Below are positions 18,339 through 30,291 of a stretch of DNA of 64,000 nucleotides, piece after piece. The stretch is from Butyrivibrio sp. (GTDB taxonomy: Bacteria; Bacillota; Clostridia; Lachnospirales; Lachnospiraceae): positions 62,001 to 126,000 of the forward strand of contig NZ_JAFRGN010000033.1 of assembly GCF_017433805.1 (NCBI RefSeq). Reading direction: 5' to 3'. The stretch's first letter is position 1. Each line of letters begins with the position of its first letter. The translations under genes and the position numbers were made by a program. Below the pieces are notes generated by a model that saw only the letters and a program-made list of their open reading frames with translations, did not search any database and was not told the origin of the DNA.

Positions 18339-19823
18339 ATGCAGGTTACATCATTTGCATTTCTAGTATTTTTATTTGCAGTTGCAGCACTTAATTACTG
18401 CCTGCCACGTAAGTTTAGATATATTCTGCTGCTGATAGCCAGCTTGGGATTCTATGCAAGCCTTGATGTTAAGGGATGCATAGTCCTTGCAATATCAATA
18501 CTGACAACCTATGCAGCTGGTCTTCTCATGGATGGTAGCGCTGGAACTGATGGCCAGGCAGGAGAGGATAAGAACGGTGGTTTCAAATCCAACAATCTTG
18601 TCTTTGCCCTCTGCATCGTCCTCAATGTAGGCATGCTTGTAGTGTTCAAATACCTTGGCTTCTTTGCTGGTTCAGTATTTGCAGTAATGGGTAAAGAGGC
18701 GCCGACTATCAGTATTCTGGCGCCAATCGGAATTTCTTTTTACACACTTAAGGCCTTGTCCTATCTGATCGATGTTAAAAGAGGCACCATTAAGGCAGAA
18801 AGAAACCTGGCTAAATACGTGCTTTACGTTTCATTCTTTACTCAGATCATTTCCGGCCCTATCGACAGAGCAGACAATCTGATATCTCAGTTCAACTACC
18901 CTGTAACGGTTGATATCGAGATGCTCAAGGATGGCTTTTTACAGATACTCTGGGGCTATTTCATGAAGCTGGTTCTGGCTGACAGAATGGCAATCTTTGT
19001 AGCTGATATTTATGGAAATCCTGTTCCAGGAACAATCACATTTATTGGAACACTTTTGTACACACTTGAGATTTACTGCGACTTTGCAGGTTATTCGCAT
19101 ATTGTGATAGGAGCAGCAAGGATTCTTGGAATCGATGTTATGAACAACTTCGAAGCTCCTTACCTTTCAGGCTCAATCGCAGAGTTCTGGCGCAGATGGC
19201 ACATTTCACTTTCCAGCTGGCTCAAGGATTATATCTATATTCCACTTGGCGGCAACAGGAAGGGAGTGGCTCGCAAGTACCTCAATATCCTCATTGTATT
19301 TGCAGTGAGCGGATTGTGGCACGGAGCAAACTGGACCTTCGTTGTATGGGGACTTCTCCATGGCCTGTATCAGGTTGTAGGATACCTCATGAAGCCGGTG
19401 AGAGACTTCTGGGTAAAGCTGTTTGCAGTAGACAGAGAGTCTTTTGCACACAAAGTGGTTAAAACTGTTATCACATTCCTTTTAGTTAATCTTGCATGGG
19501 TGTTCTTCAGAGCAGATACTATCGGAGCAGCCTTCGATGTGATCGGTAAGAGCTTATCTTTTACCCCATGGGTTCTGACAAATGGCGAGCTGTTTAGGCA
19601 CGGCCTTGACCAGGCGAACATGTTACTACTCCTTATCGGCGTGGTTATCGTATTTATTGTGGACCTTATGAACGTGAGAGGAATCATCCTTAGGGAAAAG
19701 ATATTGAGACAGCCTTTATGGCTCAGATGGCTTATCATGATCGTCGCAATCCTTGTGGTTGCTGTTTGCGGAATCTGGGGCCCTGGCTACGATGCTTCTA
19801 GCTTTATTTATCAGCAGTTCTAA
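18339..19823 (+). CDS. MBOAT O-acyltransferase (AlgI/DltB-like)
   Basis: Membrane-bound O-acyltransferase of 494 residues with about 11 hydrophobic segments. The family motif block EFWRRWHISLSSWLKDYIYI and the active-site histidine in SGLWHGANW (H328) are present. MBOAT proteins of the AlgI/DltB/PatA group pass acyl groups, often acetyl, across the membrane to a periplasmic or extracellular partner that places them on glycans. The partner is probably the SGNH-like protein 12 bp downstream. A second MBOAT is at 27638-29164. Confidence 0.93.
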   Translation: MQVTSFAFLVFLFAVAALNYCLPRKFRYILLLIASLGFYASLDVKGCIVLAISILTTYAAGLLMDGSAGTDGQAGEDKNGGFKSNNLVFALCIVLNVGMLVVFKYLGFFAGSVFAVMGKEAPTISILAPIGISFYTLKALSYLIDVKRGTIKAERNLAKYVLYVSFFTQIISGPIDRADNLISQFNYPVTVDIEMLKDGFLQILWGYFMKLVLADRMAIFVADIYGNPVPGTITFIGTLLYTLEIYCDFAGYSHIVIGAARILGIDVMNNFEAPYLSGSIAEFWRRWHISLSSWLKDYIYIPLGGNRKGVARKYLNILIVFAVSGLWHGANWTFVVWGLLHGLYQVVGYLMKPVRDFWVKLFAVDRESFAHKVVKTVITFLLVNLAWVFFRADTIGAAFDVIGKSLSFTPWVLTNGELFRHGLDQANMLLLLIGVVIVFIVDLMNVRGIILREKILRQPLWLRWLIMIVAILVVAVCGIWGPGYDASSFIYQQF

Positions 19824-19835
19824 CTGGAGTGAGAT

Positions 19836-21332
19836 ATGAAAAAGAGGATAATAAATCTAATTAAAATAGCTTTATTTGCCGCAGTTGTCCTGGCATGTAT
19901 TGTTGTGGCAGCGACAGTTGTGCGTAGAAAAGAAAGTAATGATAAATACGCGGACTTTTTTACCCAGGCAGAAAAAGGCAATATAGACGTTCTTTTCATG
20001 GGCTCATCCCATATGATAAATGGCGTTAATCCAGCAAGCTTGTATAAAGATTATGGAATTACTTCCTACAACATGGGTGGACATGGTTCCGTAATGCAGG
20101 CTACATATTGGGAGCTTATTGAAGCTCTTGATTATTGCAGCCCCAAGTGGGTTGTGGTTGATGCCTACATGCTTGAGAAGAACTATCAATACCTGGATGT
20201 CATGAACGAGAACACACCACAGGAGGACATTGATACATCAATCGATCAGCTTCACCTTAACATGGACTGCTGGCCACTTAACAGACTTAAGCTTGCTGCT
20301 ATTTCCGATCTTATTCAGGATAAAGAGATCAGAAAAGAGTTTCTGTTTGACTTCATCGTATATCATGACAGATGGAACGAGCTGACCAAAGAGGATTATC
20401 AAGTTCTGTCTGGTCAGAACGCTAGTAACAAGCTACTGGGCGGAGAGCTTAGATATGAGGTTGAACTCAAGCCTTCCACAAGTCCTGATCCTGCTGAGGG
20501 AGAGCAGCTTTCTGAGCACACAGTTGGTCAGGAATATCTCATGAAGATAATCGATGAGTGCCAGAGACGCGGAATTGGCGTACTTGTAACATACCTGCCA
20601 TTCTGCCCGACAACAGAGGATAAGATTGCAGCTAACAGTGCAGGCGTTGTCGCAGGCATGTACGATGTTCCCTATATAAATATGCTAGGTTTAGGTATAA
20701 TAGATGTATATACTGATCTTAATGATACAGGTCACCTGAATGCTCTTGGAGCCAAAAAGGTTACAGATTATCTTGGTAACTGGCTTGTTGCAACTGGAGA
20801 TCTTGAAGATCACAGAGGACAGGCTGGCTACGAGTACTATGATGAGTGCGCAGCCAGATACGCTGAGGATATGAGAAACTTTAGCGGTAGTGTGAATAAC
20901 CTCTATTCACAGCTTGAGCTTCTAAACTTTGGAGATGTGGGCTCAGTAGTATACTTTAATCAGGGCTCGGGTTCTTTTGCCGATGCGAGTGTTAAAGAGC
21001 TGGTGGCACAGATTACAGGAACTGACAAGATCAAAATCTTAAGTGATGGCCCATACATCATGATAAATGACGCAGGCTCAGGTAATGTATATGAAGCAAG
21101 CGGAGAAGAGGCGCTTTCCGGAGTGGCAACAGCTATGGGCACAATGGTTTATCAGCCTGTTGAGCAGCGCTTCAGATTCCTGTATGCGCAGGAGAATGAA
21201 GAGGTTAACTACCTCTACGATGATGACCATATCTGGTATGATATTCAGGTCATCACCTATGACAAGAATTCGGGAGAGGTGCTCTCTCACAAGTATTACA
21301 GATCCTACGGCAGCAAGTACCGTGAGGACTAA
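19836..21332 (+). CDS. Membrane-anchored SGNH-like (DltD/AlgX-type) partner of MBOAT
   Basis: Protein of 498 residues with one N-terminal membrane helix (~residues 8-28) and a large extracellular domain. Near residue 55 it has FMGSSHM, a GSS variant of the SGNH block I, then NMGGHGS, and near residue 295 the NDTGHLNALG block V with Asp and His. The C-terminal third (~residues 330-498) is unlike the core and may bind glycan or the MBOAT. It likely completes acyl transfer begun by the upstream MBOAT. Family assignment rests on these short motifs and on gene order. Confidence 0.65.
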   Translation: MKKRIINLIKIALFAAVVLACIVVAATVVRRKESNDKYADFFTQAEKGNIDVLFMGSSHMINGVNPASLYKDYGITSYNMGGHGSVMQATYWELIEALDYCSPKWVVVDAYMLEKNYQYLDVMNENTPQEDIDTSIDQLHLNMDCWPLNRLKLAAISDLIQDKEIRKEFLFDFIVYHDRWNELTKEDYQVLSGQNASNKLLGGELRYEVELKPSTSPDPAEGEQLSEHTVGQEYLMKIIDECQRRGIGVLVTYLPFCPTTEDKIAANSAGVVAGMYDVPYINMLGLGIIDVYTDLNDTGHLNALGAKKVTDYLGNWLVATGDLEDHRGQAGYEYYDECAARYAEDMRNFSGSVNNLYSQLELLNFGDVGSVVYFNQGSGSFADASVKELVAQITGTDKIKILSDGPYIMINDAGSGNVYEASGEEALSGVATAMGTMVYQPVEQRFRFLYAQENEEVNYLYDDDHIWYDIQVITYDKNSGEVLSHKYYRSYGSKYRED

Positions 21333-23220: not shown

Positions 23221-24015
23221 ATGTACGGAATTTTCATGGAGTGCTGGGTTGCCCTTAAGCTTTATGGCGGAAACGGAGTTTTACTTCTTCTGCTGGTAGC
23301 GTCCAGTATTTATCTGGTGGCAACAGAGAAAAGCATCAAAAAGAAAATAATGCTTGGCATAATACCGCTTCTGATTCTCTTGGGATTTCTTTTACCAATT
23401 ACCAAGATTGTGTATGTGGCGGCATTTAATAGTGAGGGCAGTGATACCTATTACAGGCTGCTGTGGCTCATTCCAACTTATGTGACTATTGCCTTTGCGC
23501 TGTGTAAGGTTATCTTTTCACTTAAAAAGGCGATGTATCAGAGAATCGCGTTGGTAGTGACACTGGCGTTTATCGCTGTTACCGGTTCACTTGTGTATGC
23601 CAATAATAACGTCAAGGTTGCTGAGAATCTGTATCACATTCCACAGCACGTTATTGATATCTGCGATGAGATCGCACCTGCTGATGGCGAGCCAAGAGTT
23701 CGAGCAGCATTCCCTTCTGAGCTGGTTCATTTCGTGAGACAGTATGACACTGACATTCTTCTTCCTTTTGGTAGAGAGATGGTTGTAACTCAGTGGGATT
23801 ATTACAATCCAGTTTATGAAGTAATGGAGAAGCCTGAGGTTATAGATGCCAAGGCTCTTTTGGAGGCAACAAGAGAGACCAAGTGCAGCTATATTGTTCT
23901 GGCTGAAAATAGAAAGATAGATGGAGATCTGGTGGATATGGGGCTTGAGCTTGTGAATACGCTCCACGGCTATTATATCTATGCTGATCCGGTGGTGATA
24001 AATGAAGAAAGCTAA
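23221..24015 (+). pseudogene. DUF6077-like membrane protein, C-terminal part
   Basis: The 264 residues lie in the same frame as the upstream gene. They contain about four hydrophobic segments, then a hydrophilic C-terminal domain (~residues 140-264), the part expected to follow the helices of 21985-23193. The outside loop FNSEGSDTYYRLLWLIP fits the late GT-C loop. GAGG six bases before ATG 23221 could allow reinitiation after the TGA, so the two halves might still assemble. The end overlaps the licD-like start by 14 bases. Confidence 0.55.
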
Positions 24016-24793
24016 ATCAATAGAGGAGCTTCATGGCATATTGTACGATATGCTACTTGAGGTTGATAGAATCTGTAAAGAGAACAATATTAGATATTTT
24101 CTGGCCTTTGGTACGGAGATAGGCGCGGTGAGAGACCATGCGTTTATTCCCTGGGATGATGATATAGACATCAAAGTGATGCGTGAAGACTATGAGAACT
24201 TTAAGGCAGCAATGAAGGCTAATCTGAAAGGGCCGCTCAAGTTCACAGAGCCAGTGGATTTACGGCCTTATTTTTTTGACTTTGTACCAAGAGTCATTAA
24301 CACGGAATACACCTTGAGCGATTCCGAGATGCTTCAGGGACATCCGGCTGTTGATGTGTTCCTTGTGGACCACGTTCCAGCTGGCAGAGTTTTCCAAAAG
24401 GGAATGTATCTCAAGCTCAAGCTGATCCATGCTCTCAGTATTTCCAAGAGGCAGTGGATTGATTATAAAGATTATCACGGGCTTCAGAAGGCGGGCATTT
24501 TTCTTTTGAGCAGCGTTGGTAAGCTCTTTTCCCTGGATACGCTTATCAGAATGTATGACAGGCAGCAGAGGAAGTACGAGAAGGTGACTACACCTTATAG
24601 ATTTACCAGCAATTTTGCCTTCGGAATTCAGGCGATGTACGACTTTGATATTTACGAGAAATCTATAGACGTAGTGCTGGAAAGGGATTCTTTTCCATGC
24701 CCTGAGAGATATGACGAAGAGCTGAGACTGGTATACGGTGATTACATGACTCCCAGGAAAATGGGAATAGTTCATTATGAGGAGAAGGAGTAA
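24002..24793 (+). CDS. LicD-family phosphotransferase
   Basis: LicD-type enzyme of 263 residues. LicD proteins move a phospho-amino-alcohol (phosphocholine in pneumococcus) from a CDP carrier to a glycan. The family signature is clear: FLAFGTEIGAVRDH, then IPWDDDIDI with the metal-binding Asp cluster near residue 50, and MREDYENF. The stop overlaps the ATG of the next gene, which carries the matching nucleotidyltransferase domain, so donor synthesis and transfer are coupled. No choline uptake or choline kinase gene is seen in the window, so the headgroup may not be choline. Confidence 0.9.
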   Translation: MKKAKSIEELHGILYDMLLEVDRICKENNIRYFLAFGTEIGAVRDHAFIPWDDDIDIKVMREDYENFKAAMKANLKGPLKFTEPVDLRPYFFDFVPRVINTEYTLSDSEMLQGHPAVDVFLVDHVPAGRVFQKGMYLKLKLIHALSISKRQWIDYKDYHGLQKAGIFLLSSVGKLFSLDTLIRMYDRQQRKYEKVTTPYRFTSNFAFGIQAMYDFDIYEKSIDVVLERDSFPCPERYDEELRLVYGDYMTPRKMGIVHYEEKE

Positions 24794-26607
24794 TGCAGGC
24801 GATTATTTTGGCGGCTGGAATGGGTAAGAGGTTAAAAGAGCTTACTCAGAATAATACAAAGTGTATGGTAAAGGTCAATGGTGTTGCGCTTATTGACAGG
24901 ATGCTTCATCAGATAGAGAAAAAGAACCTTTCTCGAATTGTCATTGTTGTGGGATATGAAGCTGATAAACTCAAGGATTATATCGCTACGCTGGATATTA
25001 AGACACCTATCGAGTATATCGATAATCCTATCTACGACAAGACCAACAATATTTATTCCCTGTCACTTGCAGGAGATTATCTGGTAAAAGAGGATACGGT
25101 TTTATTCGAGTCCGACCTTATTTTTGAGGATTCTGTTCTGGACGCTTTACTGGAGGACCCAAGAGATACTCTGGCACTTGTTGATAAATATGAATCCTGG
25201 ATGGATGGAACCTGTGTTAAGCTCTCTGATAATGATGACATTGAGGCTTTTGTTCCAGGCAAGAAGTTCAAATTTGATGAGATAAAAGAATACTATAAAA
25301 CTGTTAATATCTATAAATTCAGTAAGCACTTCTCTGAGACTCATTACGTTCCATTTCTCAAGGCTTATCAGTCTGCCCTTGGACAGAATGAGTATTATGA
25401 GCAGGTTCTACGTGTGATAACAATGCTTGATGATCCTGAGATCAAGGCCAAGAGGCTTGATGGACAGAAGTGGTACGAGATTGATGATATTCAGGATCTT
25501 GATATTGCAGAGTCTATTTTTACACCGGATGAGGATGAGAAGGTAAGTCTCCTTCAGGGACGCTACGGCGGTTATTGGCGCTATCCCAAGCTCATCGATT
25601 TCTGCTACCTTGTAAATCCTTATTTCCCACCTGACAAGATGAAGGATGAACTCAGGGCTAATTTCGATCTTCTTTTAACTGAGTATCCATCAGGAATGAG
25701 GGTAAATAGTCTCCTGGCTGCCAAGAACTTTGGTGTTCACAGTGAGAATATCATTGTTGGAAACGGGGCAGCAGAGCTGATAAAGAGTCTTATGGAGAAC
25801 CTTACTGGCAAGACTGGCTTCATCCGTCCTACCTTTGATGAGTATCCTAACAGATACGACAAGGAAACATCGGTTTACTTTGTCCCGGATAATTCTGATT
25901 ACTCTTATACAGCTGATGATATCATGAACTTTTTTGCGGAGGCTGATATCAGTAACCTGGTGGTGGTTAACCCTGATAATCCAAGCGGTAACTACATTGC
26001 CAAGAAAGATCTGCTGCGCCTTATTAAATGGTGCGCTGATAAGGGTATTAAGCTTGTTGTGGATGAGTCCTTTGTGGACTTTGCCGATGAACCGGACAAT
26101 ACGCTGATCGATCAGAAGCTCCTTGCTGACAATAAGCATCTTTATGTGATGAAGAGTATATCCAAATCCTACGGAGTACCAGGCCTTCGCCTTGGAGTTC
26201 TGGCATCCGGAGATACTGATACAATCAGTGCCATGAAAAAAGATGTTGCCATCTGGAACATCAATTCTTTTGCTGAATTCTATATGCAGATAGAAGAAAA
26301 GTACAAGAAGGACTACGTTAGTGCACTTGTACGTTTCAGAGAAGAGAGAAAGAGGTTTGAAGAAGAGCTTTCCAAGATAAAGGGAATACGCGTGATTCCT
26401 TCTCAGGCCAACTTTGTTATGGCTGAGCTTGATGCGGACATTTCACCTAAGGCGCTTCTTAAGACCTTGCTTATCAGGCACAATCTTTTGATAAAAGAGC
26501 TGACTACTAAGACAAACGGCAGGAACTACCTGCGTCTTGCTGTTAGAAATACTACAGATAATGACATTTTGCTTGCAGCTCTGAGGGATGAGCTGGGAGA
26601 TAGATGA
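24793..26607 (+). CDS. Bifunctional LicC-like cytidylyltransferase / CobD-HisC-like PLP enzyme
   Basis: A 604-residue fusion. Residues ~1-235 are a nucleotidyltransferase: LAAGMGKRL at 6-14, the KCMVKVNG segment, and NNIYSLSLA as in LicC phosphocholine cytidylyltransferase. Residues ~255-604 are a fold-type I PLP enzyme: GNGAAELI, PDNPSG, DESFVDF, the SISKSYG Schiff-base lysine at K458, GLRLG, a W-x-x-N pair at W488/N491, and a final RLAVRNTTDNDILLAALR. These last features recall threonine-phosphate decarboxylase CobD more than HisC. I infer that the PLP half makes an amino-alcohol phosphate and the other half activates it with CTP for LicD. Plain aminotransfer remains possible. Confidence 0.8.
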   Translation: MQAIILAAGMGKRLKELTQNNTKCMVKVNGVALIDRMLHQIEKKNLSRIVIVVGYEADKLKDYIATLDIKTPIEYIDNPIYDKTNNIYSLSLAGDYLVKEDTVLFESDLIFEDSVLDALLEDPRDTLALVDKYESWMDGTCVKLSDNDDIEAFVPGKKFKFDEIKEYYKTVNIYKFSKHFSETHYVPFLKAYQSALGQNEYYEQVLRVITMLDDPEIKAKRLDGQKWYEIDDIQDLDIAESIFTPDEDEKVSLLQGRYGGYWRYPKLIDFCYLVNPYFPPDKMKDELRANFDLLLTEYPSGMRVNSLLAAKNFGVHSENIIVGNGAAELIKSLMENLTGKTGFIRPTFDEYPNRYDKETSVYFVPDNSDYSYTADDIMNFFAEADISNLVVVNPDNPSGNYIAKKDLLRLIKWCADKGIKLVVDESFVDFADEPDNTLIDQKLLADNKHLYVMKSISKSYGVPGLRLGVLASGDTDTISAMKKDVAIWNINSFAEFYMQIEEKYKKDYVSALVRFREERKRFEEELSKIKGIRVIPSQANFVMAELDADISPKALLKTLLIRHNLLIKELTTKTNGRNYLRLAVRNTTDNDILLAALRDELGDR

Positions 26608-26608
26608 T

Positions 26609-27574
26609 ATGAAGATCATTAGCTTTGAAGATATTAAGAATATGAAGCTGGAGCCTTCTCTTTGCTATGAGTGGGTTAGCGACATGATTGCTGATAAGGG
26701 CAAAACTCAGCTTCCACCCAAGACTCATATGACGCTTCCTGGAAATATTTTTTGCAATGTCATGCCTTCTATGATAGAGGCGTCTATGGGCATCATTGGC
26801 GGAGTTAAGGTTGTGACTCGCTATCCAGAGAGGAAGCCATCACTTGATAGTAAGATACTTCTTTTTGACGGTGATAGCGGAGAATTTCTGGCTCTTATGG
26901 ATGGGAACTGGATAACTGCTATGAGGACAGGCGCTGTTGCAGCTCATAGCGTTATGCATCTGGCTAAAGCTGGTTTTAAGACATTAGGTCTCATTGGACT
27001 TGGTAATGTTACTCGCAGTACTATGATCGTTCTTGCCAGTCTGTGCAGTGACAGAAAGCTGACTGTTAAGCTCCTTAGATACAAGGACCAGGCAGAGAGC
27101 TTCATGGAGAGGTTCAAGGATTTTGACAATCTAGATTTTGTCATTGTAGATACTGTCCGTGAGTGCATTCAGGGATCTGAGGTTGTTATCTCTGGTGCCA
27201 CTTATTTTGAAAATGATATAGCAGAAGATGAGTGGTTTGATGAGGGCGTTTTAGTTGTACCCGTTCACACAAGAGGCTTTACTAACTGCGATCTGTTTTT
27301 TGACAAGGTATTTGCTGATGATACAGGGCATGTAGACCATTTTGGGAATTTCTCCAAATTTAAGTATTATGCAGAAGTAAGTGATGTGGTTAATGGCAGG
27401 GCTGAGGGCCGTACCAATGATAAGGAGAGGATACTTGCCTATAACATTGGAGTATCTATCCATGACATCAATTACGCTGCACTTATTTATCAGCTTATGT
27501 CAGAGGATAAAGAAGTTTTTGGTAGTCTTGCTGATGCGGAGATGAAGGAGCCTTCTGAGAAGTTCTGGATATAA
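26609..27574 (+). CDS. Ornithine cyclodeaminase/mu-crystallin family protein
   Basis: NAD(P)-dependent enzyme of 321 residues. It has the substrate-side AMRTGAVAAH motif, the Rossmann GLIGLGNVTRS and a late GVSIHDINYAALIY carrying the conserved Asp. Relatives include ornithine cyclodeaminase, archaeal alanine dehydrogenase and SbnB, so it may provide or convert an amino acid used by the PLP domain encoded just upstream. The substrate is not readable. I use ATG 26609, one base after the upstream stop; ATG 26588 in the same frame would overlap the fusion gene. Confidence 0.85.
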   Translation: MKIISFEDIKNMKLEPSLCYEWVSDMIADKGKTQLPPKTHMTLPGNIFCNVMPSMIEASMGIIGGVKVVTRYPERKPSLDSKILLFDGDSGEFLALMDGNWITAMRTGAVAAHSVMHLAKAGFKTLGLIGLGNVTRSTMIVLASLCSDRKLTVKLLRYKDQAESFMERFKDFDNLDFVIVDTVRECIQGSEVVISGATYFENDIAEDEWFDEGVLVVPVHTRGFTNCDLFFDKVFADDTGHVDHFGNFSKFKYYAEVSDVVNGRAEGRTNDKERILAYNIGVSIHDINYAALIYQLMSEDKEVFGSLADAEMKEPSEKFWI

Positions 27575-27637: not shown

Positions 27638-29164
27638 ATGGTTTTTAACTCCTATGAATTTGTGCTTTTATTTCTGCCTTTGTTCCTGATAGCTTATAAC
27701 CTGTTAAGGAGCATAGGGCGCAAGAAGGGAAATGTGAGGATACTGGTAGAGCTGTGTATCATACTGGGATCCTTGTGTTTCTATACCCTTTTTGGAATGC
27801 AGAATCTGGCTATTTTGCTAATGAGTATCTGCTTTAATATCTGCACTTCGATTCCGATGAGTTTTATGAGAGAGCACAGTACAGAGCTTTCTTTGTTTGG
27901 CAAAAAGATTGCGGTTCAGAAGCTGTGGCTTTCTTTTGGAATAATCTTTAACATAGTTCTTTTGCTGTTCTTTAAGCTGTGGGGAGTTTTCCTTCCTATC
28001 GCTATCAGTTTTTATACCTTTAATCAGATTTCATATATTGTGGATCTGGAGAGGGGAGATATTGAGAAGTTCGAGATAATGGACTATCTTGCATATATTC
28101 TCTTTTTCCCCAAGCTCTTGCAGGGACCACTTATGGGATATGGTGAGTTTAATGCAAGACTCACAGAGGCGCTTGATAAGAGCTTTGAATATGAGACTTT
28201 TCTTCGCGCTATGTATCTCTTTTCCATAGGCTTGTTTAAGAAAGTTATCATGGCAGACACCATTGGTAAGGCTGTTGATGCTAACTTTGAATGGCTGGTT
28301 GGTATGGGAAGTCTTGAGGCTGTCATGACAGCAGTGTTCTATTCATTCCAGCTGTACTTTGATTTCAGCGGCTACTGCGATATGGCCGCAGCAGTGAGTA
28401 TGCTTCTTGGAATAGAGCTTCCCATCAACTTTGATTCACCTTACAAGGCGGTGAATATTGTTGATTTCTGGAAGAGATGGCATATCACCCTCACTAAGTT
28501 TTTTACTAAGTATTTGTATATTCCTCTTGGTGGCAACAGGAAGGGCGAGGTCAGGACTTACATTAACTTCATGATCATTTTCCTTGTGAGCGGTTTCTGG
28601 CATGGAACAGGCTGGACCTTTATCGTGTGGGGCGCTATGCACGGCGTGCTGTATGTGGTGACCAGATGGATTGGGAAGAGGAAGGAAGCTGGGACAGGTA
28701 CAGCTAAGTCTGAGTTGGCGAAGTCTGATACAGGAAAAGATGAGACTGGTATTGGATATAGACTTGTTAACGCCTGCAAGATTGTACTGACATTTATGTA
28801 TGTTACTGCAGCCTGGGTGTTCTTTAGAGCCAAGACAATTGAGGATGCGCTGATTTTATTTGGGCAGATATTCAGAGGCGGCGTACGACCTTTTGGAAAT
28901 AACTTCTCTGCGGCTTTCCAGATTGATGAGCTGTGGTATGTGCTTAAGGTTACACCTCTTATGAAGCTTAGTAACGCATGGGAGCTGTGCGCTTGGATAT
29001 TTATGGCAGTTTCGGTGGTGATGATTTTCTTTTGCCCAAATGCGATCAGAAGATGCAAGGAGTGTAAACTCGGGGTTGGAACAACACTCATGACTGTGCT
29101 CCTGTTAGTGTGGAGTGTTGTGAGCTTTGGTGGAGTCAGCACTTTCCTGTATATGAATTTCTGA
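27638..29164 (+). CDS. MBOAT O-acyltransferase, second copy
   Basis: Membrane-bound O-acyltransferase of 508 residues with about 11 helices. The DFWKRWHITLTKFFTKYLYI block and the active-site histidine in SGFWHGTGW (H322) are present. It differs clearly from the first MBOAT (18339-19823), so this is not a recent duplication. A charged Gly/Thr/Lys-rich insert at ~residues 349-370 separates the last helices. The next two genes encode SGNH-like proteins that could accept the acyl group. Confidence 0.92.
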   Translation: MVFNSYEFVLLFLPLFLIAYNLLRSIGRKKGNVRILVELCIILGSLCFYTLFGMQNLAILLMSICFNICTSIPMSFMREHSTELSLFGKKIAVQKLWLSFGIIFNIVLLLFFKLWGVFLPIAISFYTFNQISYIVDLERGDIEKFEIMDYLAYILFFPKLLQGPLMGYGEFNARLTEALDKSFEYETFLRAMYLFSIGLFKKVIMADTIGKAVDANFEWLVGMGSLEAVMTAVFYSFQLYFDFSGYCDMAAAVSMLLGIELPINFDSPYKAVNIVDFWKRWHITLTKFFTKYLYIPLGGNRKGEVRTYINFMIIFLVSGFWHGTGWTFIVWGAMHGVLYVVTRWIGKRKEAGTGTAKSELAKSDTGKDETGIGYRLVNACKIVLTFMYVTAAWVFFRAKTIEDALILFGQIFRGGVRPFGNNFSAAFQIDELWYVLKVTPLMKLSNAWELCAWIFMAVSVVMIFFCPNAIRRCKECKLGVGTTLMTVLLLVWSVVSFGGVSTFLYMNF

Positions 29165-29175
29165 TGTGGGTACAG

Positions 29176-30291
29176 ATGAAAAAGATGAAAGAAAATACTT
29201 TTGATAAAAAGAAATTGAATAATAGCAGATATCGCGGCTTGTTTATTGCTTTCTGGGCGATTCTACTTGTGGTAGTTGTGGCGGTGGCTGGGATAGTGGT
29301 TTATGTGGATCCATTTTTTCACTACCATAAGCCGCTTCCGGGATTTCCTTATGTAGTGGATAATCAGCTAAGTCAGAATCCTGGAATGGCGAGGAATATG
29401 AATTACAATTCTTGTATCATCGGTTCGTCAATGACAGTTAACTTTGATACGGATGATTTCAAGGAATTGATGGGGCTGGATACACTGAAGCTTAGCTACA
29501 GCGGAGCGTATCCCAAGGATGATTCAAATATTCTTTCTATAGTGTTTGATGAAAGCAGCCTTGCGAGGAAGAATAGTCCGGTTGACGCTGTGTTTTTTGC
29601 CATGGATATTCCTGTAATGGCGGCGGATACTGAGACGGTCAAGTACGAGAGACCAGAGTATCTATATGATAAGAACATTTTCAATGATGTTAAGTATGTG
29701 CTAAACAAGGATGTGATCATGCAGTACATATTCAGGCCTATAGTTCAGAGGCAGGGAACAGACTTGTCTGAGGCGTATTTTAGCTGGTGGACTCCGGAGT
29801 ATTACAATATTCAGTGGGTTATGCACACCTACGAGGAGCCTGAGAAGGTGGAGGAAGAGCTTCCGACAAATGCAATGCTGGAGCAGACAGAACTTAATCT
29901 GGATGTGAATATCTTGCCTTTTGTGGAGCAGCATCCTGAGACTCAGTTTTATTTCTTTTTCCCACCCTACAGCATTTTGTACTGGCACAATGTTCTGCAG
30001 GAGAATTCACTGGAAGCCACAATGGCGCAGTATGAGTATGTTGCTTTTAGATTGCTTCAGTATGACAATGTACATCTTTTCTACTTCCAGAACATGGATG
30101 AGGTGACTGACCTTAACAACTACGCTGATTATTCTCACTACAAGCCAGAAATAAACAGATACATGGTTGAGTGCTTTGCAAGCGGAGAGCATGAGGTTAC
30201 TACCTATGATGAGATGCATTCGGAACTTTCCAAAATGCGTGGTATAATAGACGAGTTTGATTTTGAGGAGTTATTTTCTAAAGAGTGGTAA
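29176..30291 (+). CDS. Membrane-anchored SGNH-like acyl-transfer partner
   Basis: Protein of 371 residues with one N-terminal membrane helix (~residues 20-42) followed by YVDPFFHYH, an element common in DltD/AlgJ-like SGNH proteins beside MBOATs. IIGSSMTVNF supplies the block I serine and NYADYSHYKPEI near residue 315 the Asp/His pair. It probably moves acyl groups from the MBOAT to glycan outside the cell. Start choice: ATG 29176, 11 bases after the MBOAT stop; ATG 29164 overlapping that stop is also possible. Confidence 0.68.
   Translation: MKKMKENTFDKKKLNNSRYRGLFIAFWAILLVVVVAVAGIVVYVDPFFHYHKPLPGFPYVVDNQLSQNPGMARNMNYNSCIIGSSMTVNFDTDDFKELMGLDTLKLSYSGAYPKDDSNILSIVFDESSLARKNSPVDAVFFAMDIPVMAADTETVKYERPEYLYDKNIFNDVKYVLNKDVIMQYIFRPIVQRQGTDLSEAYFSWWTPEYYNIQWVMHTYEEPEKVEEELPTNAMLEQTELNLDVNILPFVEQHPETQFYFFFPPYSILYWHNVLQENSLEATMAQYEYVAFRLLQYDNVHLFYFQNMDEVTDLNNYADYSHYKPEINRYMVECFASGEHEVTTYDEMHSELSKMRGIIDEFDFEELFSKEW

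Follow-up and report, generated by a model that had tools for sequence, protein, structure and literature searches.

The window analyzed here is a 64,000-nucleotide stretch of a Butyrivibrio sp. genome (contig NZ_JAFRGN010000033.1, positions 62,001 to 126,000 of the forward strand), and our subject is a three-gene module on its + strand at 24002-27574: a LicD gene, a 604-residue fusion of a LicC-like domain with a pyridoxal phosphate (PLP) enzyme, and an ornithine cyclodeaminase (OCD)-like gene, arranged head to tail and overlapping or nearly touching. The first gene (24002-24793, 263 aa) encodes a LicD family phosphotransferase, predicted to transfer a phospho-amino-alcohol from a CMP donor to glycan; it matches Pfam PF04991 with 102.9 bits (cut-off 22.6) and has no relative in the Protein Data Bank (PDB) at E 1e-3. 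The fusion open reading frame (ORF) spans 24793-26607. Its residues 1-245 (24793-25527) form a LicC/PntC-like cytidylyltransferase domain with PDB matches 6pd1 and 1jyk, and residues 255-604 plus the stop codon (25555-26607) form a fold-type I PLP domain, predicted to be an L-phosphoserine decarboxylase, whose best PDB match is 6oux. The third gene (26609-27574; PF02423, 115.4 bits, cut-off 24) encodes an NAD(P)-dependent imine reductase of the OCD/mu-crystallin family, predicted to act on the ethanolamine nitrogen. The LicD stop codon TAA (24791-24793) and the fusion ATG (24793) have one base in common. The listed OCD ORF starts at 26588, but the true start is probably the ATG at 26609, one base past the fusion TGA (26605-26607), since alignments with most OCD relatives begin at residue 8. 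The three ORFs lie where a sequence-only reading of the window had placed them, and the motifs it named in the PLP domain are present: DESFVDF at 424-430, YGVPGLRLG at 460-468, W488 with N491, and R581-x-A583-x-R585.

The fusion is widespread. A tblastn search of a genome collection (E 1e-3) returned 496 stretches encoding a relative, and the best 80 of these, which we fetched, show 72-89% identity across all or nearly all of the fusion. Their record titles name Lachnospiraceae, Oscillospiraceae, Erysipelotrichaceae, Coriobacteriales and spirochaetes, mostly as metagenome-assembled genomes. This recurrence excludes a chance joining. Locus counts given below use 79 of the 80 stretches plus our own genome (80 loci): L044 was left out of the neighbor count because the ORF caller missed its fusion (an OCD gene is present there), and L041, which has one in-frame stop, was left out of the protein sets. 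Within the same family the fusion is present in 33 of 299 genomes (E 1e-100, identity 42-100%); of the 34 family-sample regions L167 gave no fusion row, and G643 is counted twice, giving 33 family-sample loci. A draw of 398 genomes from the phylum contained the full-length fusion in 3, 2 of them of the own family. More distant full-length fusions occur in plasmid-collection records, where they are annotated as generic aminotransferase: Fusobacterium at 49.5% identity, and Gloeothece, Pseudonocardia, Rahnella, Erwinia and Priestia at 31-35%. We conclude that the fusion is an old, mobile protein. We set a phage origin aside: of 7 phage records, not one reaches 80% coverage of the query, and one IMG/VR contig has a 49% relative. 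On plasmid pBM700 of Priestia megaterium (L242), a divergent fusion is accompanied by two ATP-grasp genes, an AAC(3)-like acetyltransferase gene and a DXR-like gene, a set resembling a small-molecule cluster.

The PLP half had been described as CobD-like, which holds in part: it is not HisC and carries mostly CobD-type residues, but it is not CobD proper. The CobD model TIGR01140 is its best NCBIfam model, with 175.8 bits against a cut-off of 290.55, and the HisC model TIGR01141 reaches 143.1 bits against 276.55. Among PDB entries, 6oux leads with 164.3 bits (labeled 'threonine phosphate decarboxylase-like enzyme'), ahead of CobD 1lc5 (108.8 bits) and 3ftb (108.7 bits, labeled histidinol-phosphate aminotransferase). 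The product name of 6oux is also that of SMUL_1544 of Sulfurospirillum multivorans, and from this shared name we take the two to be the same protein. SMUL_1544 is reported to yield norcobalamin in a cobD mutant. In a 90-row tree, 23 fusions lie on one side of a branch (support 100/98) and are joined by 6oux (100/99), while 16 HisC rows and 8bj1 form a separate clade (100/99) with no fusions inside. The 19 CobD rows (L183-L201), which pass or nearly pass the TIGR01140 cut-off and to which four solo rows are identical, fall outside the clade of fusions and 6oux, the deeper branches being weak. A 54-row tree (45 of the 90 rows, including about 10 re-used CobD rows, plus 9 new ones) unites 6oux with the distant fusions and with two unfused rhizobial enzymes (clade of 21 rows, 100/99), the HisC and CobD rows lying apart. 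Membership in HisC is thus ruled out by the tree and the TIGR01141 cut-off, and membership in CobD proper by the TIGR01140 cut-off and both trees; the tree placement that would have spoken against the sequence-only reading, inside the histidinol-phosphate or other transaminases, did not arise.

Individual residues show the same placement. At eight positions the fusions and 6oux have a common residue that is present in at most 4 of the 62 rows of the CobD, HisC and solo groups, a set with some repeats; the fusion residues that match 6oux rather than CobD are C271, Y272, L273, S300, K454, E495, Y508 and K573. Where the fusion carries F427, S455, W488, A583 and R585, the residues in the 16 HisC rows are Y, T, F/Y, T/S and G, and the CobD-type residues W, F, S and R/K are present as W488, F427, S455 and R585. 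By alignment the Schiff-base lysine is Lys458. One fusion (L146/L173, genome G592) has Asp in its place and has also lost Tyr272, Tyr298, Tyr351 and Asn396; its LicC half keeps Arg13, Lys23 and Glu106. Because of the Asp at 458 and the other losses, its PLP half is probably dead. Our own genome has, besides the fusion, a separate CobD-like gene (232 bits, below cut-off) and a HisC gene above its cut-off. On these alignments and trees, the PLP half belongs to a third family beside CobD and HisC, one that spans cobamide, glycan, lipid-like and phosphonate clusters, and activities may differ within its clade.

The cytidylyltransferase half matches PntC and LicC about equally in the PDB (56.2 bits for 6pd1, which we take to be PntC-AEPT Tde1415 of Treponema denticola, and 54.1 bits for LicC 1jyk), and it retains R13, K23, D108 and D231. 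Its amine pocket is of the PntC type: Glu106 (by alignment) and Tyr202-Glu203 are as in PntC, whereas LicC has Asp and Trp-Asp. Glu203 is assigned here by its aromatic-acidic motif, the aligner placing this second site one residue off. In the portion of the PntC study that concerns the pocket, PntC Glu104 and Glu196 lie where they can contact the amine group of 2-aminoethylphosphonate (AEP), and the smaller Asp residues of LicC may leave room for choline (PMC6697681). The fusion departs from the LicC/PntC consensus given there, GXG(T/S)RX4-8PK (PMC6697681): it reads GMGKR...TK, with Lys12 in place of T/S and Thr22 in place of P, and retains the catalytic Arg13 and Lys23. Both glutamates are invariant in an alignment of 56 sequences, drawn from the 80 best, and are kept in 11 of 13 more distant fusions; the exceptions are L176, whose reading frame is truncated by the end of its contig, with Gln in place of Glu106, and L179, in which Lys replaces Glu203 and Ile replaces the catalytic Lys23. 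These residues suggest a small primary amine as substrate. They do not separate AEP from ethanolamine phosphate, because the two are near-isosteres.

The contents of the genome bear on this choice. The sequence-only reading had found no choline uptake or kinase genes in the window, and for the kinase a genome-wide search agrees: the best match to PF01633 scores 20.5 bits, below the cut-off of 29, in a search that took in neither the broader kinase family PF01636 nor choline transporters. No phosphoenolpyruvate (PEP) mutase was found in the genome, so that ethanolamine phosphate would be favored over AEP here; likewise, no PEP mutase scores above cut-off in 31 of the 34 genomes that carry the fusion, and among the 80 fetched stretches the enzyme is seen only in L047 and L076. 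We have set aside both the choline and the phosphonate route for this genome, where they are unlikely.

From gene order, family placement, clade, pocket residues and co-occurrence we infer the chemical steps as follows. We consider it probable, at roughly 0.6, that the 604-residue protein is a bifunctional CDP-ethanolamine synthase serving surface-glycan decoration, with transfer by LicD and N-modification by the OCD-like enzyme. The PLP domain would decarboxylate O-phospho-L-serine to ethanolamine phosphate, the LicC/PntC-like domain would couple this with CTP to CMP, giving CDP-ethanolamine, and LicD would place phosphoethanolamine on the glycan. The OCD-like enzyme would reduce the imine of the ethanolamine nitrogen with a keto acid (e.g. 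pyruvate), producing an N-carboxyalkyl (opine-type) phosphoethanolamine; this step could come before activation, after activation or after transfer, and ODH (octopine dehydrogenase) would fill the place of OCD in other species. Of the two decorations proposed by the sequence-only reading, phospho-aminopropanol is the less likely, because 6oux, the only neighbor characterized by name, is proposed to make ethanolamine phosphate. The relevant section of PMC4585668 suggests that SMUL_1544 might make ethanolamine phosphate for norpseudo-B12. Phosphoserine decarboxylation is also known in glycan clusters, since Cj1436 of Campylobacter jejuni is described, in the parts of two reports that treat it, as converting serine phosphate to ethanolamine phosphate for the capsule (PMC12409886, PMC11800397).

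We counted neighboring genes within five ORFs of the fusion (for LicD, on either strand). ODH or OCD is a neighbor in 43 of the 80 loci (ODH in 29, OCD in 15, both in L059 only), and the gene directly after the fusion is ODH in 23/80 and OCD in 11/80, one of these OCD genes (L064) lying on the opposite strand. The two ODH proteins scanned (L029, L053) match PF02317, and the solved relatives of the L029 protein at E 1e-3 are all opine dehydrogenases: octopine dehydrogenase and N-(1-D-carboxylethyl)-L-norvaline dehydrogenase (CENDH). Enzymes of this kind couple an amine with a keto acid. Among the solved relatives of the OCD protein are pyrroline-2-carboxylate reductase, 4m54 (SbnB), mu-crystallin, alanine dehydrogenase (1omo) and iminosuccinate reductase (6rqa); its 13 NCBIfam matches all fall below their cut-offs. 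In the 299 family genomes, an OCD homologue over 200 bits occurs in 6, of which 5 carry the fusion, always within five ORFs (Fisher p 6.8e-5), and ODH occurs in 6, of which 4 carry the fusion, always adjoining it (p 1.6e-3). Taken together, 9 of the 12 genomes with close OCD or ODH carry the fusion (p 1.4e-7), and when OCD matches under 200 bits are counted (G530, G606) the OCD figure becomes 5/8 (p 5.4e-4); all these p-values are rough, the genomes being related and the 200-bit line having been drawn afterwards.

The two reductases also exchange repeatedly: on a quick tree of 108 fusions (L149, L150, L151, L181 and L182 left out as repeats of 80-locus contigs), a reductase at +1 or -1 is gained or lost at least 22 times, and its identity switches between OCD and ODH at least 10 times. 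Three family genomes have close OCD or ODH without the fusion. In G414 (L235:3982-9739) the order is LicD - LicC-like - LicD - ODH - HisC-like PLP - LicD, a related but split arrangement; in G572, ODH is flanked by LicD and a sulfatase-family gene, and a LicC-like gene is close by; and in G401, LicD and a Glyphos_transf-like gene occur in the same stretch as OCD. The co-occurrence suggests opine-type N-alkylation. The sequence-only reading had left the OCD gene to feed or modify the amino acid; action on the amine is more likely than feeding, because octopine dehydrogenase takes the same slot elsewhere. We found no literature for N-carboxyethyl ethanolamine phosphate in O-antigens, which is reported for Proteus mirabilis O14, and the open-licence literature searched describes no imine reductase of these families acting on phosphoethanolamine. 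Opine-type decorations as such do exist, since O-antigens with alanopine and carboxyethyl-lysine are listed in the pertinent part of PMC10609480.

LicD is a neighbor in 29/80 loci and in 12/33 family-sample loci. A constant LicD-fusion-OCD triple was considered and rejected: it recurs with window-like neighbors in L004, L006 and L012, and elsewhere LicD, ODH and OCD vary. In Gloeothece an S-adenosylmethionine-dependent methyltransferase gene lies between fusion and LicD, and in Rahnella the fusion is found with a CDP-alcohol phosphatidyltransferase. Ten of 20 unlabeled genes at +1 were scanned, and they comprise 2 glycosyltransferases, 2 ATP-grasp proteins (amino-acid-ligase-like in L042, of the sugar-transfer type in L080), 2 MptE-like proteins, 1 ROK, 1 DUF1015 and 2 without a family. 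In L065 and L069 the fusion is flanked by an MptE-like gene on one side and an OCD gene on the other. Five loci (L074, L076, L079, L063, L040) contain runs of ~875-residue proteins that join a YidC-like domain (60KD_IMP) to a sulfatase-family domain, identified by Pfam in L074 and by clustering in the rest; in L074, L076, L079 and L040 a Glyphos_transf-like gene stands beside them. Another set, found near the fusion in L007, L028, L035 and L075, consists of a LicC-like gene with an N-terminal winged-helix match, an amidohydrolase gene and a LicC-choline-kinase fusion; it starts two ORFs on (at the next ORF in L075) and was identified by Pfam in L007 and by clustering in the others.

The surroundings in the window itself include glycan genes, namely family 2 glycosyltransferases, MBOAT acyltransferases and a GDP-mannose-dehydratase-like gene, together with a polysaccharide-flippase-like gene (27.6 bits, below the cut-off of 28.2). 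MBOAT genes flank the module on both sides, at 18339-19823 and 27638-29164, and each is followed by a gene without a Pfam match (19836-21332 and 29110-30291).

Several observations weigh against a CDP-ethanolamine synthase with an attached imine reductase. One rival setting is phosphonate metabolism: the fusion would make CMP-2-aminoethylphosphonate, its PLP domain acting as an AEP transaminase or a phosphonoalanine decarboxylase. In L047 the order is PEP mutase - phosphonopyruvate decarboxylase - fusion (L047:1-3639), like AEP operons, the mutase carrying the EDKXXXXXNS motif; in L052 it is phosphonopyruvate decarboxylase - fusion (L052:2-2368), the decarboxylase in both loci being named from sequence and not by profile scan. 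The genomes of L047 and L052, whose completeness is unstated, yielded no AEP transaminase above cut-off, and that of L038 yielded one; a transaminase role for the PLP half fits L047 and L052 better. A PEP-mutase fusion lies three ORFs downstream of the fusion in L076. In two rhizobial loci (L239, L243), whose PLP enzymes belong to the same clade, unfused relatives of both halves adjoin PEP mutase; because no phosphonopyruvate decarboxylase is listed alongside in the gene tables, which are incomplete, phosphonoalanine decarboxylation would fit there. The PntC-like pocket would suit this route as well. The rarity of PEP mutase among fusion loci and genomes, and its absence from the search of our own, nevertheless make it very unlikely for the protein described here. 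We regard as equally doubtful a CobD-like reaction, in which the PLP domain would decarboxylate L-threonine phosphate and the decoration would be phospho-1-amino-2-propanol: TIGR01140 is the best NCBIfam model and 1lc5 the second PDB match, but the score stays below cut-off, the domain lies outside the CobD rows in both trees, and eight residues are shared with 6oux rather than CobD.

A transaminase yielding serinol phosphate or similar, and hence a CDP-serinol-like donor, is quite unlikely. It has a precedent in Cj1437 of C. jejuni, which according to the portions of two reports that deal with it makes serinol phosphate from dihydroxyacetone phosphate (PMC12409886, PMC11800397). The PLP enzyme of the split operon in G414 is HisC-like, and S457 and G461 of the fusion agree with HisC, not CobD; on the other side stand the position of the domain outside the HisC clade and its W488 and R585. 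A further departure is Lys568, found in the 23 fusions and 6 distant ones, where CobD, HisC, solo, 6oux and the two rhizobial rows have Arg; substrate binding may thus differ from that of the Arg-bearing relatives. As regards the reductase, neither ODH nor OCD is a neighbor in 37/80 loci, some of them on short contigs, and in the family-wide sample one or the other is present in only 8/33 loci. Because of these 37 loci, we do not count the reductase step as part of the core. Moreover, at most 2 of the 10 scanned +1 genes (the ATP-grasp genes) could plausibly tailor an amine, the other 8 not obviously. That the OCD-like enzyme instead feeds the pathway, e.g. by reductive amination of 3-phosphohydroxypyruvate to phosphoserine, is unlikely: alanine dehydrogenase and iminosuccinate reductase are among its solved relatives, and the presence of both OCD and ODH in L059 speaks against interchangeability, but octopine dehydrogenase takes the same slot at the counts given above.

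Returning to CDP-ethanolamine, we tentatively suggest a broader scheme, which is possible but clearly less secure than the synthase itself: a widespread, exchanged module in which phosphoserine would be converted to CDP-ethanolamine, OCD or ODH would add a keto acid to the nitrogen, and LicD would place an opine-type N-carboxyalkyl phosphoethanolamine, while single-locus neighbors (amino-acid ligase, methyltransferase) would give further N-modified phosphoethanolamines. If so, many gut and rumen bacteria would use serine to make a phosphoethanolamine donor, needing no choline, ethanolamine or phosphonates, and would have a system for tailoring a single activated amino-alcohol. With two unrelated imine reductases alternating beside the fusion, there would then be a testable route to N-carboxyalkyl phosphoethanolamine decorations. 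In the open-licence literature we found no description of the fusion or of its reductase slot.

It is instructive to compare the module with known systems. SMUL_1544, from the norcobamide pathway of S. multivorans, is alike in its PLP clade (100/99) and in the ethanolamine phosphate product proposed in the relevant section of PMC4585668; it differs in being stand-alone, in lying in a cobamide cluster, and in having Arg where the fusions have Lys568. Cj1436, from the capsule pathway of C. jejuni, has the same predicted reaction in a surface-glycan cluster; there, as the pertinent parts of the reports describe, Cj1438 attaches the ethanolamine phosphate through an amide and Cj1435 removes its phosphate, with no CTP activation (PMC12409886, PMC11800397). 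PntC-AEPT of T. denticola (Tde1415) likewise joins a LicC-family cytidylyltransferase to a PLP enzyme from the pathway of its substrate, with the same Glu/Glu amine pocket in the account cited above, but its PLP half is of class V and serves phosphonates, whereas that of the present fusion is of class I/II in a genome where PEP mutase was not found. The phosphocholine pathway of Streptococcus pneumoniae shares the order of CTP activation followed by LicD transfer; its LicC has Asp and Trp-Asp where the fusion has Glu106 and Tyr202-Glu203, and our genome has no PF01633 choline kinase over cut-off. The neighboring ODH and OCD genes belong to the families of octopine dehydrogenase and CENDH and of SbnB and mu-crystallin, respectively. 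The parts are all of known kinds; what is new to us is the way they are combined, together with the third PLP family and the exchange of reductases.

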